Source: Thermodesulfobacteriota bacterium | Lineage (GTDB): Bacteria > Thermosulfidibacterota > Thermosulfidibacteria > Thermosulfidibacterales > B14-G1 | NCBI GenBank assembly: GCA_024274915.1 | Contig: JAJSAC010000043.1 | Location: forward strand, 1 to 41,297 | Direction of reading: 5' to 3' | Length of the DNA: 41,297 bases | In this document: in pieces, positions 13,231 to 27,530 of the stretch | How the letters are laid out: each line of letters opens with the position of its first letter | How positions within the stretch are numbered: the stretch's first letter is position 1 | The notes under the pieces: model-generated | What the model was told of the DNA's origin: nothing | Seen by the model: the letters and a program-made list of their open reading frames with translations, nothing else | The model's database searches: none | Program-made: the position numbers and the translations under genes

Positions 13231-13310
13231 GACTCGCCCTCCTTGATTTAACACTTCACGCCTGGATTTCTTATTTTCACCCTTAACCCTTACCCCTTAA
13301 TCCTTTAATC

Positions 13311-19456: not shown

Positions 19457-19700
19457 CAGGACTTCCCCCAGTTTTACTCTTATGGGTCAGGGCGGGGCGT
19501 TCCGACCGCAGAGATGATAGCTCATAGTTCATAGCTCGTAGTTCATGGTTTATAGCTCACAGTTGCTATCAGCCATGAGCCATCAGCTATCAGCCATGGG
19601 CAAGGGAGGAATGCCCCGCCCTTTCACTTGTCGGAAAGAAAAAATCCAGGATTCTGAACATGATGCCTTTACCAGGAAGGGATTTTTGGGGGAAGTCCAG
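19457..19700. mobile_element. 244-bp MITE-like inverted-repeat element, copy 1
   Basis: Begins CAGGACTTCCCCCA and ends with its reverse complement (one mismatch pair at the second base). It is flanked by 9-bp direct repeats AACTCTCAC (19448-19456 and 19701-19709). An inner inverted repeat GGGCGGGGCGTTCC / GGAATGCCCCGCCC lies further in. No transposase is encoded, so it must be mobilised in trans. Its core, 19513-19596, is a palindromic array of 7-bp units. It interrupts a nucleotidyltransferase gene. Confidence 0.9.
19515..19599. repeat. palindromic heptad array in the element core
   Basis: Seven tandem 7-bp units on the plus strand with consensus TCATAGC (for example TGATAGC, TCATAGT) are followed by five units of the same kind on the minus strand (TGATAGC, TGATGGC, TCATGGC). 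The two halves could fold as a hairpin. The array fills the part of copy 1 that differs from copy 2. Confidence 0.8.
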
Positions 19701-24320: not shown

Positions 24321-24564
24321 CAGGACTTCCCCCAGTTTTACCCTTAGGGATAAGGGCGGGGCGTTCCGAGCGCAGATCCATATTTGAGGCGCCCAGAGAC
24401 CAAGTTACGAAAAACCAAGTCTTTGGCGATTACAAGCCAGGCTCCCATGCGCCGATTATATGGGCAAGGGAGGGATGCCCCGCCCTTTCACTTGTTGGAA
24501 AGAAAAAATCCAGGATTCTGAACATGATGCCTTTACCAGGAAGGGAATTTTGGGGGAAGTCCTG
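24321..24564. mobile_element. 244-bp MITE-like inverted-repeat element, copy 2
   Basis: Same ends as copy 1 (CAGGACTTCCCCCA and its exact reverse complement), same length, and 9-bp direct repeats CTGGATAGC at 24312-24320 and 24565-24573. The outer 56 bp on the left and about 103 bp on the right match copy 1 closely without gaps. The 84-bp core (24377-24460) is unrelated to the core of copy 1. It lies between the UbiA-family gene and wzm and disrupts no gene I can recognise. Confidence 0.88.
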
Positions 24565-24818: not shown

Positions 24819-25655
24819 ATGGTCTGGCAGGAAGAAAAAACACCGGTTATTGTCATCAAGCCCCGCCCAGGGTTTGCCTTAAAGCTCAAAGAGCTCTGGG
24901 AATACAGGGAGCTCTTCTACTTCTTTATCTGGAGGGACATAAAAGTCCGATACAAGCAGACGGTGATAGGTGCCGCCTGGGCCGTCATCCAGCCTTTCTT
25001 CACCATGGTTGTCTTTAGTATCTTCTTCGGCAAGCTGGCCAAGATACCGTCGGAGAACCTTCCCTACCCCATCTTCGCTTACTCTGCCCTTGTACCCTGG
25101 ACCTACTTTGCAAATTCCCTTTCCAATGCCACGGACACCATGGTAGCCCACCAGAGGGTCATCACCAAGGTCTACTTTCCCAGGCTCATCCTCCCCGTCT
25201 CGGCGGTTCTTTCGGGCCTTTTAGACTTTGCCATCGCCTTTGGCGTCCTCATTCTCATGATGCTTTTCTATGGCATTCATCCCACATCTAACATCGTTTA
25301 TCTCCCCTTTTTCCTTTTCTTGACCATAGCCACAGCCCTGGCTGTAGGGTTCTGGACCTCGGCGGCCAACGCCATATACCGGGATGTGCGCTATGTGGTG
25401 CCCTTCCTCATCCAGTTCTGGCTCTTCGCCTCCCCCATTGCCTATCCCAGCAGCCTGGTACCGGAAAAATGGAGGGTTCTGTATGGTCTAAACCCCATGG
25501 CCGGGGTTATAGAAGGCTTCCGCTGGGCCCTTTTGGGCAAAGCCCCCCCTCCCGGGCCTATGCTCATAGTCTCAATTATAATAGTCGCGCTCATGCTCAT
25601 AGGAGGCATCCTATACTTCCGCCGCATGGAAGGCACCATAGCGGATGTGATTTAG
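24819..25655 (+). CDS. wzm: ABC-2 type polysaccharide export permease (Wzm)
   Basis: 278 residues with an N-terminal cytoplasmic part (LKELWEYRELFYFFIWRDIKVRYKQT cut short here by family resemblance) followed by about six hydrophobic segments; YKQTVIGAAWAVIQPFFTMV and VPWTYFANSLSNATD are typical of the O-antigen/teichoic-acid exporter permeases. It works with the Wzt ATPase at 26172, which would normally follow at once; here a four-helix-bundle gene flanked by heptad arrays separates them. Confidence 0.92.
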   Translation: MVWQEEKTPVIVIKPRPGFALKLKELWEYRELFYFFIWRDIKVRYKQTVIGAAWAVIQPFFTMVVFSIFFGKLAKIPSENLPYPIFAYSALVPWTYFANSLSNATDTMVAHQRVITKVYFPRLILPVSAVLSGLLDFAIAFGVLILMMLFYGIHPTSNIVYLPFFLFLTIATALAVGFWTSAANAIYRDVRYVVPFLIQFWLFASPIAYPSSLVPEKWRVLYGLNPMAGVIEGFRWALLGKAPPPGPMLIVSIIIVALMLIGGILYFRRMEGTIADVI

Positions 25656-25659
25656 GGAA

Positions 25660-25708
25660 GACGGGAGACGGGAGACAGAGGACGGGAGACGAAAGACTGG
25701 AGACCGGA
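25660..25708 (+). repeat. heptad array A (GACNGGA), upstream of the four-helix-bundle gene
   Basis: Seven consecutive 7-bp units all beginning GAC with consensus GACNGGA (three are GACGGGA, one GACAGAG, one GACTGGA). It starts five bases after the wzm stop and ends ten bases before the ATG at 25719. No separate Shine-Dalgarno sequence is seen between the array and the ATG. Confidence 0.85.
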
Positions 25709-25718
25709 AAATAAGAAA

Positions 25719-26072
25719 ATGAACTATAAATTCCAAAAATTGCAGGTGTACCGCATGGCCCTGGATTATGTTGATAAGATCTACAAAAGCTCTGAAAAAC
25801 TTCCTGAATCAGAGAAATACAATCTAAAAAGGCAACTCGAGAGAGCTGCAACATCCGTCGTATTAAACATTGCAGAAGGATCGACAGGACAATCCAATGC
25901 AGAACAAAAGAGGTTTCTGAGGCTAGCTTTGAGATCTTATTTAGAGACAGTAGCATGCATGGACATAATAGAAATGAGAGGGTACCTACCCCCAAGTCCT
26001 TTACAAGAGGTGAGAACCGCAGGGCACCAGCTTTTTGTCAAGCTCCAAGCCTTCATAAAAAGCCTGGAATGA
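25719..26072 (+). CDS. four-helix-bundle protein (S23 / avd-like family)
   Basis: 117 residues. The pattern FQKLQVYRMALDYVDKIYK, LPESEKYNLKRQLERAATSV and NIAEGSTGQSNAEQKRFLRL with a final helix is the signature of the S23 family, first seen as inserts in 23S rRNA genes and related to the Avd accessory protein of diversity-generating retroelements. No reverse transcriptase or variable repeat is present here, so it is not a complete retroelement. It sits inside the wzm-wzt pair, bracketed by heptad arrays in opposite orientation (25660-25708 plus; 26110-26151 minus). The function of stand-alone members is unknown. Confidence 0.88.
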   Translation: MNYKFQKLQVYRMALDYVDKIYKSSEKLPESEKYNLKRQLERAATSVVLNIAEGSTGQSNAEQKRFLRLALRSYLETVACMDIIEMRGYLPPSPLQEVRTAGHQLFVKLQAFIKSLE

Positions 26073-26080
26073 ACAAAGAA

Positions 26081-26151
26081 GACGGAGGACCGGAGAAAGC
26101 CACATCCCCAGGTTTTCTTCTTCCCCCGTCCCCGGTTTCTCCTCTTCGGTC
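26081..26151. repeat. heptad array B, downstream of the four-helix-bundle gene
   Basis: Two to three plus-strand units (GACGGAG, GACCGGA, GAAAGCC at 26081-26101) are followed by about six units read on the minus strand (for example GACCGAA, GACGGGG at 26151-26110). The minus-strand part is the inverted counterpart of array A. Units are more degenerate than in array A. Confidence 0.65.
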
Positions 26152-26171
26152 TTCGATATGAACACCTAACT

Positions 26172-27530
26172 ATGAGCTATGAGCCACCAGTCATAAGGGT
26201 TGAAAACCTAGGCAAGCGCTTTCGCATAGGGCAGCGAGAAGGGTACCTCACTCTCCGCGACACCCTGGCCCGTGCCTTCAAGACCCCCCTCGGGATACTA
26301 AGGAAAAAGTTTCTGTCTCCCATCTCCAATCTCCCGTCCTCTGTCCCCAGTCCCCAGTCCTCTGTCCCCGGTCAGCCGTCTACCGACGGCTTCATCTGGG
26401 CCCTGAAAAACGTCTCCTTTGAAGTGAAGCGTGGTGAGGTAGTGGGCATCATCGGCCGCAACGGGGCGGGGAAGACTACCCTGCTCAAGATCCTATCCCG
26501 CATCACCGAGCCCACAGAAGGCTATGCAGAAGTGAGAGGTCGTATAGGTTCCCTACTGGAAGTGGGAACAGGCTTTCATCCTGAGTTGACGGGCCGGGAA
26601 AACATCTACCTTAACGGCGCCATCCTGGGCATGAAAAAGAAAGAAATAGACAAAAAATTCGACGAAATTGTGGCCTTCGCCGAGATAGAGAAATTCATAG
26701 ACACACCCGTGAAATACTATTCCAGCGGCATGTATGTCCGCCTGGCCTTTGCCGTGGCTGCCCACCTGGAACCGGAAATTCTCCTGGTGGACGAGGTACT
26801 GGCCGTGGGCGACGCCGCCTTCCAAAAGAAGTGCCTGGGGAAGATGGGAGATGTGGCTAATGAAGGGCGGACGGTGTTGTTTGTGAGTCATAACATGGGG
26901 GCGGTCGAAAACCTCTGCCCAAAAGTGTTCTTATTAGATGCAGGAGAGCTAATTCGCCAAGGCAAGCCGCAATCCATCATAAACTACTACCTTGAGACGT
27001 TACTACCCTCCACGATTGAGGGTACACCATTGTCCGAACGCAAAGATCGGTCCGGCAACGGTAAAATCCGCCTTACAAGCTTTCACATTGAAGACACAGA
27101 AGGAAATAAATTGGTAGCTGCTCGCAGTGGAATGGACGTCGTGTTTGTATTTGGATTTCGATGCCTTGATAGGGAAAAACCCAAGAATGTCGATATTGGA
27201 TTTTCTATCAGTTCCGGAAATGACCAGATTCTCTTCGTTCTGTACGGGTCATACACAGGACAAGTGTTTGAAACCGTACCCCTCTTTGGAGTATTTCGTT
27301 GTTACGTCAGCAGACTTCCTCTATCACCAGGGCGATATCGAGTAGGAGCTCGAGTAACCGTGGGCAGAGAAGAAGCTGACTTTCCACGGAACGGAGTTGG
27401 ATACCTAGATGTTGAAGCAGGGGACTTCTACGGAACTGGAAGTATGGGATTCGATGGATTAACACCGTTTTTAGTAACCGGAAAGTGGGAAGTAAGAGAA
27501 TACACATCAGTGATAAAGCAGAAATGGTGA
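26172..27530 (+). CDS. wzt: ABC transporter ATPase for polysaccharide export (Wzt) with carbohydrate-binding C-terminus
   Basis: 452 residues. ATPase domain: Walker A GRNGAGKT (about 95-102), signature YYSSGMYVRLAFAVA, Walker B EILLVDEVLAVGD and switch histidine VLFVSHNMGAV. The C-terminal half (about 290-452) is a Wzt_C-type beta-sandwich that binds the polysaccharide end (RFGYLDVEAGDFYG-like pattern). Residues 48-70, before FIWALKNVSF, form an S/P/Q-rich linker encoded by a heptad array that is absent from usual family members. No clear ribosome-binding site precedes the ATG; the start lies in two ATGAGC(T/C) units. It pairs with Wzm (24819). Confidence 0.93.
   Translation: MSYEPPVIRVENLGKRFRIGQREGYLTLRDTLARAFKTPLGILRKKFLSPISNLPSSVPSPQSSVPGQPSTDGFIWALKNVSFEVKRGEVVGIIGRNGAGKTTLLKILSRITEPTEGYAEVRGRIGSLLEVGTGFHPELTGRENIYLNGAILGMKKKEIDKKFDEIVAFAEIEKFIDTPVKYYSSGMYVRLAFAVAAHLEPEILLVDEVLAVGDAAFQKKCLGKMGDVANEGRTVLFVSHNMGAVENLCPKVFLLDAGELIRQGKPQSIINYYLETLLPSTIEGTPLSERKDRSGNGKIRLTSFHIEDTEGNKLVAARSGMDVVFVFGFRCLDREKPKNVDIGFSISSGNDQILFVLYGSYTGQVFETVPLFGVFRCYVSRLPLSPGRYRVGARVTVGREEADFPRNGVGYLDVEAGDFYGTGSMGFDGLTPFLVTGKWEVREYTSVIKQKW
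26311..26380 (-). repeat. heptad array C inside wzt
   Basis: Ten uninterrupted 7-bp units on the minus strand, consensus GACNGGG, including GACTGGG twice and GACAGAG three times with its GACAGAA variant. The plus strand reads as CCCAGTC-type heptads, very like the cyanobacterial STRR1 unit CCCCAGT. It is translated as a linker in Wzt. Confidence 0.88.

Follow-up and report, generated by a model that had tools for sequence, protein, structure and literature searches.

A small gene of the S23 (23S_rRNA_IVP) family lies in the window, the whole stretch of 41,297 nucleotides that was analysed, between a gene for a Wzm-like permease and one for a Wzt-like ATPase (Table 1). The initial annotation had read it as a four-helix-bundle, S23-like gene placed inside a wzm-wzt pair, and both parts of that reading are borne out: the product matches PF05635 and TIGR02436, the latter named 'four helix bundle protein', and it has an ABC-2 permease on its left and, on its right, an ABC ATPase that carries a Wzt_C-like domain. 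The S23 family profile matches the PDB entries 2gsc and 2rld. We take S23 to be a pentamer-forming protein and, to our knowledge, it has no nuclease or catalytic domain. The gene is the only one in the unit described below, which lacks the Y1 HUH transposase that would place it with the REP/RAYT systems.

Table 1. Genes and heptad arrays at the wzm-wzt junction of the window.
Feature	Position	Strand	Evidence
Wzm-like ABC-2 permease, upstream neighbour	24819..25655	+	PF01061 E 7.5e-18; stop codon is the left insertion border
5′ arm, seven degenerate heptads (GACNGGA type)	25656..25708	+	lag-7 score 20; maximum 10 in 300 dinucleotide shuffles
S23 / 23S_rRNA_IVP four-helix-bundle gene	25719..26072	+	PF05635 E 1.7e-26; TIGR02436 88.7 bits, cut-off 24
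3′ arm, degenerate, complementary to the 5′ arm	26118..26154	-	Smith-Waterman 19; 0/300 shuffles as high
Wzt-like ABC ATPase, downstream neighbour	26172..27530	+	PF00005 E 1.2e-23; Wzt_C 5.1e-07, slightly below cut-off
Second array, unit as in the 5′ arm, inverse orientation, in frame in wzt	26316..26385	-	lag-7 score 29

The gene is flanked by two short arms. The 5′ arm begins with the base directly after the wzm stop codon and has its G-rich strand in the sense direction. Seven GACNGGA units had been claimed here; the array is real, scoring well above every shuffle, but only five of the seven heptads fit GACNGGA exactly. The inverted array claimed just downstream is also present, though weaker than had been described. 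Its sequence complements that of the 5′ arm, with 25657-25693 pairing with 26118-26154, while its 7-bp periodicity by itself is not significant (score 6, matched by 20 of 300 shuffles). In an RNA fold of 25640-26165 the two arms are paired, with a z of -2.74. A second array of the same unit forms 70 bp of the wzt coding sequence 5′ of the ABC domain and likewise complements the 5′ arm (score 25, shuffle maximum 21). As this array is in frame within wzt, heptad arrays can evidently turn protein-coding too.

Across many phyla, heptad arrays show a specific association with S23 genes. The survey comprised 80 S23 loci from genome representatives, with phyla including Bacteroidota, Planctomycetota, Bacillota, Desulfobacterota, Proteobacteria, Nitrospirota, Patescibacteria, Cyanobacteriota, Acidobacteriota, Omnitrophota, Cloacimonadota and Chloroflexota, together with one locus from an archaeal MAG (L083). 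Lag-7 arrays had a density of 2.24/kb in the 200 bp before S23 and 2.79/kb in the 200 bp after it, against 0.11-0.32/kb elsewhere within ±6 kb, which is about 10-20 times lower. Lag 8 was enriched near S23 as well, while lags 5, 6 and 9-12 were not. Arrays on both sides were found for 37 of the 80 S23 genes compared with 8 of 438 other ORFs on the same contigs (odds ratio 46, p=1.7e-26), and in the set of genomes searched for both families at least one side carried an array at 20/27 S23 genes and at 0/29 HEPN genes. About a quarter of the S23 loci showed no array by our detector. In the reverse direction, array pairs apart from those of the queries were inspected for what they enclose: all five that held a lone ORF of about 120 aa contained another PF05635 gene, and more widely spaced pairs held a variety of genes. 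The initial annotation had stated that the link should be abandoned if arrays were not enriched around such genes or were just as common near unrelated ones, and neither proved to be so. The survey proteins were picked by similarity to S23 proteins, some from array-bearing loci (L025, L028, L030, L033) and one from a locus without an array by the detector (L002); because the selection started partly from array-bearing loci, the share of loci with arrays is perhaps somewhat inflated. The controls based on position and on swapped arms are less affected by the choice of loci. The control ORF calls were mechanical, and contaminants may be present in MAG contigs (e.g. L129).

The heptad unit varies by locus, examples being GGTTAGC, GGGTAAA, TGGTTCC, AGAAGAC and AGGGATT, and the two arms of a locus are matched to one another. 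The complementarity between upstream and downstream flanks had a median alignment score of 20 for own pairs and 10 for swapped arms, with 62 of 71 own pairs but only 7 of 213 swapped ones scoring at least 15. The arms also differ in strand composition, with G exceeding C in 38 of 43 upstream arms and C exceeding G in 48 of 52 downstream arms. Similarity of the arm unit was weakly related to similarity of the protein (Mantel test, partial rho 0.16; control flank 0.08), and there is therefore no evidence of a recognition code.

Arm, S23 gene and second arm insert as one unit in the stop/start gap of adjacent genes. This is seen most directly on Nostocales plasmids, where the same operons occur with and without the cassette and exact filled and empty sites are available at three junctions. 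Junction I is empty in the form ...GGTAATGGGATTTG and filled in L142. Junction II is empty in five records of the type ...TTCTAG GTT ATGCAA and reads ...TTCTAA-ATCAGGAGTCAGAAGTCAG...S23...CTGACTCCTGACTTCTGGATTCTAGTT-ATGCAA where it is filled (L342, L343, L344), and junction III is of the type ...GAGTAG GAG ATGCCC when empty and is filled in L143 and L337. At all three the inserted material is arm-S23-arm and starts at or beside the stop codon of the upstream gene. One site shows an apparent loss of about 12 bp. No long target-site duplication was found at these three junctions, where one of 3-5 bp is possible, and the unit contains no recombinase. Survey loci with well-matched arms follow the same rule: the 5′ arm starts at a median of -1 bp from the upstream stop codon (24/30 within 15 bp), and a median of 4 bp separates the end of the 3′ arm from the next start, with larger scatter than at the 5′ arm. 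The cassette of the window agrees with this rule. Both neighbours were co-directional with S23 at 41 of 55 loci, compared with 205 of 348 control genes (p=0.036). tRNA genes directly adjoin S23 cassettes or solo arms at several loci (L037, L031, L047, L038, and L312 and L313 in G060).

The suggestion that the roughly 500-bp unit of the window is an inserted cassette is supported by the exact empty sites of the plasmids, but an empty wzm-wzt junction was sought in relatives without a clean case being found. In a relative whose Wzm is 86% identical (G004) there is no S23 gene after wzm; a nucleotidyltransferase-HEPN pair lies directly 3′ of wzm (L137, G004:C57, 369-1116) and the contig stops short of wzt. 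In another genome (L138/L034, G005:C231) wzm is followed by small DUF433/DUF5615-like genes, a 3′-end fragment of an S23 gene and a complete S23 cassette, and 7- and 9-bp arrays surround HicAB-like genes there. Judging from these two genomes, the stretch downstream of wzm appears to be a hotspot.

Once inserted, some cassettes remain in place for long periods. Long residence was seen for L079, L110, L129 and L135, for L069, L071 and L097, and for L092 and L099, which from the ends of the neighbouring proteins we take to be fadB-S23-fadA, moxR-S23-DUF58-like and sdhA-S23-sdhB-like arrangements, respectively. The S23 protein is under purifying selection, with dN/dS mostly 0.04-0.13 between pairs of related S23 genes. 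The arms behave differently. Among orthologous residents, upstream arms resemble one another, and downstream arms one another, mostly more than either resembles its own partner, from which it follows that the complementarity decays after insertion. Mismatches within the arms showed no preference for G-U (102 wobble-compatible, 121 not), and there is therefore no sign of selection maintaining an RNA stem. Taken together, the drift of the arms and the lack of a G-U preference suggest that the complementarity arises when the element is made or moved and not by selection on an RNA stem.

Copies and derivatives of cassettes are found within single genomes. The clearest case is G036, where a 480-bp cassette with perfectly complementary 34-bp arms has close by a 98%-identical copy with its middle replaced by other DNA, a copy cut down to the two ends and a solo 5′ arm, each flanked by different DNA. 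Solo arms also occur in other places, as does a short hairpin (L305) retaining an apparent S23 ribosome-binding and start region. With its congener G060 included, G017, a genome with one S23 gene, shows a 33-bp arm at about ten places, which belong to at least four unrelated contexts. No clean orthologous empty site for a G017 solo arm was found in G060. Dispersed arm copies are clear in G017, G036 and G047. A second S23 gene lies within 6 kb at 11 of the 80 loci, nearly always on the same strand.

Other repeats were noted alongside these. In G016 (L042, G016:C7, and other places) paired back-to-back S23-like ORFs lie in a near-palindrome of about 540 bp that is repeated through the genome and is 81% self-inverted at the single place examined. 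The genome of the window has about one heptad array per 10 kb, many of them within a MITE. The window itself contains two members of a MITE-like family with the ends AGGACTTCCCCCAG / GGGGGAAGTCCT, at 19457-19698 and 24321-24563, of which the former includes a long heptad array (19512-19606) and disrupts a nucleotidyltransferase gene beside a HEPN gene; further copies of the family are present at L007, L008, L010, L011, L015 and L018. An additional solo array, of the CCCTTAA type, is found at 13276-13305, remote from S23 genes.

What moves the cassette was considered through the enzymes that accompany it. Y1/HUH transposases are present in 17 of 18 S23-positive genomes compared with 16 of 38 others (p=1.4e-4), and the partial rank correlation of S23 and Y1 counts given genome size is 0.54, though this is a correlation over 56 genomes, taken without phylogenetic correction. 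G005 is S23-positive and has no Y1 gene, and HEPN shows an association of the same kind that is weaker. HUH enzymes use single-stranded DNA hairpins as substrates and produce no target duplication, which would fit the arms of the cassette, and by this analogy a Y1/HUH transposase is possibly their mobiliser. No S23 relative was encoded in viral contigs, and phages gave no match. Among regions around Y1 transposases, 3 of 20 had any array and one of these had arrays on both sides; at this locus (L328, G036:C36) complementary period-8 arrays flank the transposase region at 342-377 and 1364-1420, and it could bridge S23 cassettes and RAYT units. Arms of period 8 or 9 instead of 7 were also observed at S23 genes in G026 (L031, L051) and G003 (L049).

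We consider it probable that the segment from 25656 to about 26157 is a copy of a widespread small insertion element, consisting of a G-rich heptad arm, S23 and a complementary C-rich arm and lying in the sense direction. Most likely the cassette is a mobile relative of the 23S rRNA intervening sequence that resides in operon junctions. The anatomy, the specificity for S23, the insertion as a unit (in the plasmid relatives), the copies and deletion derivatives (in one genome) and the purifying selection are established here. On this reading the element inserts in sense into the gap of a few bases that separates two genes of an operon, from stop codon to start codon. Its arms would fold back on each other, either in the RNA of the operon transcript or as hairpins of single-stranded DNA during movement, and by analogy with the Coxiella 23S intervening sequence RNase III could cut the transcribed stem. 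S23 may bind its own arms, and strand transfer would be supplied in trans, possibly by a Y1/HUH transposase. The heptads would grow, shrink and drift through slippage. The G-rich upstream arm may double as the Shine-Dalgarno region of S23, as with AGGAGTCAGAATAAATG in L342, and solo arrays in the genomes would be relics or deletion derivatives of S23 cassettes.

The initial annotation had gone further in proposing that S23 spreads or maintains 7-bp arrays. In this form S23 would be a factor acting in trans to seed heptad arrays across the genome, analogous to RAYT and REP, and the solo arms that recur in nearly identical form at many places in G017, G047 and G036, like the density of arrays in the genome of the window, are what it would predict. 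However, lag-7 arrays away from S23 numbered 10 per 476 kb in S23-positive and 4 per 578 kb in S23-negative genomes, which is not significantly higher (p=0.13 per genome), the solo arms can be explained as deletion derivatives, the protein has no known catalytic domain and the relation between arm and protein similarity is weak. We therefore regard such a role for S23 as unlikely. We would give a similarly low probability to the arms being an RNA regulatory device, in which RNase III cleaves a stem of the operon mRNA that is autoregulated by S23 and kept by selection on the RNA. It would account for the pairing of the arms in the window fold, for the shared orientation with the neighbouring genes and for the strong purifying selection on S23 with residence at the same junction across genera, and the Coxiella sequence is indeed excised by RNase III (PMC4990558); against it stand the missing wobble bias and the independent divergence of the arms in orthologous residents.

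The other two alternatives fare much worse. Movement like that of a retroelement, with S23 in the role of Avd and a reverse transcriptase copying the hairpin RNA, is suggested by the sense orientation and by the bAvd and DGR-Avd profiles, which match some S23 proteins, mostly weakly. RVT_1 is, however, missing from the genome of the window (G000) and from 14 of the 18 S23-positive genomes, and the presence of a reverse transcriptase is unrelated to that of S23 (p=1). A reverse transcriptase is thereby excluded as a general requirement, the Avd/DGR-type idea raised at the outset fails on this point, and the mechanism is very improbable and, as a general one, largely refuted. We attach just as little weight to simple-sequence slippage, by which heptamers, a common class of long bacterial SSR, would gather by chance in the spacers around accessory genes. 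Heptameric SSRs are reported to be over-represented in bacteria (PMC4692102, PMC4679880), but the arrays seen here are tied specifically to S23 rather than to HEPN genes, Y1 genes or other ORFs, their arms match in inverted orientation and the whole unit is inserted. These three observations refute slippage as the sole explanation.

It is quite possible, though we would hold this less firmly than the reading of the window segment as an insertion element, that S23 and self-complementary heptad arms make up a distinct and very widespread class of cassettes without a transposase. Such a minimal two-part element would enter stop-start junctions in sense without disruption, bring its own ribosome-binding region and be the source of many intergenic 7-bp repeats. 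S23/IVP proteins occur in many phyla and have solved structures, their function is not settled, and heptameric repeats are a so far unexplained feature of bacterial genomes. Joining the two in one insertion element would give a large family a testable function and the repeats a source, and would add to the known elements a class that inserts at operon junctions, often in spacers of about 3 bp. The filled and empty plasmid pairs make the mechanism directly testable. A search of open-licence PMC papers found no report that connects free-standing S23 genes with heptad arms in inverted orientation or with insertion in operon junctions.

Several known systems share features with the cassette. MITEs have short terminal inverted repeats, no transposase and deletion derivatives; in contrast, the cassette encodes a conserved protein under purifying selection, has heptad arrays for arms and shows no clear target-site duplication. 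REP/RAYT systems (REPtrons, REPINs) likewise place a small gene between inverted repeats and, in some genomes, have dispersed non-autonomous repeats, whereas the S23 gene has no Y1/HUH nuclease domain, Y1 genes merely co-occur with it and the repeats are tandem heptads, not palindromes. The accessory protein Avd (bAvd) of diversity-generating retroelements is a homologous four-helix bundle, and some S23 proteins have Pfam bAvd matches; the Avd model did not match the window protein and gave 29.1 bits with L033 (curated cut-off 80), and, unlike these retroelements, most S23 genomes lack a reverse transcriptase. The heptameric SSRs GGGAATC of Xanthomonas, GGGGATT of Nostoc and TAACTGA of Beggiatoaceae are also intergenic with period 7, and about 70 convergent inverted heptamer pairs per genome are described for Xanthomonas (PMC4692102); the searched text of these papers makes no connection to S23, whereas here the arrays are the arms of an inserted cassette.

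Intervening sequences with an S23 ORF in the 23S rRNA, for example those of Coxiella and Leptospira, are likewise close to the cassette. That of Coxiella has GACAGAT heptamers before the S23 ORF, in a copy number that varies between strains, and a 28-bp terminal stem, and it is excised by RNase III (PMC4990558). Intervening sequence and cassette alike carry S23 in the sense direction, have complementary termini forming a stem and show heptamers preceding the ORF, and mobility is suspected. None of the scanned S23 loci matched the 23S and 16S motifs used. The two differ in that the intervening sequence lies in a helix of the 23S rRNA, whereas the cassette lies between protein genes, here wzm and wzt, and its arms are arrays of several units on both sides, with a unit specific to the locus.
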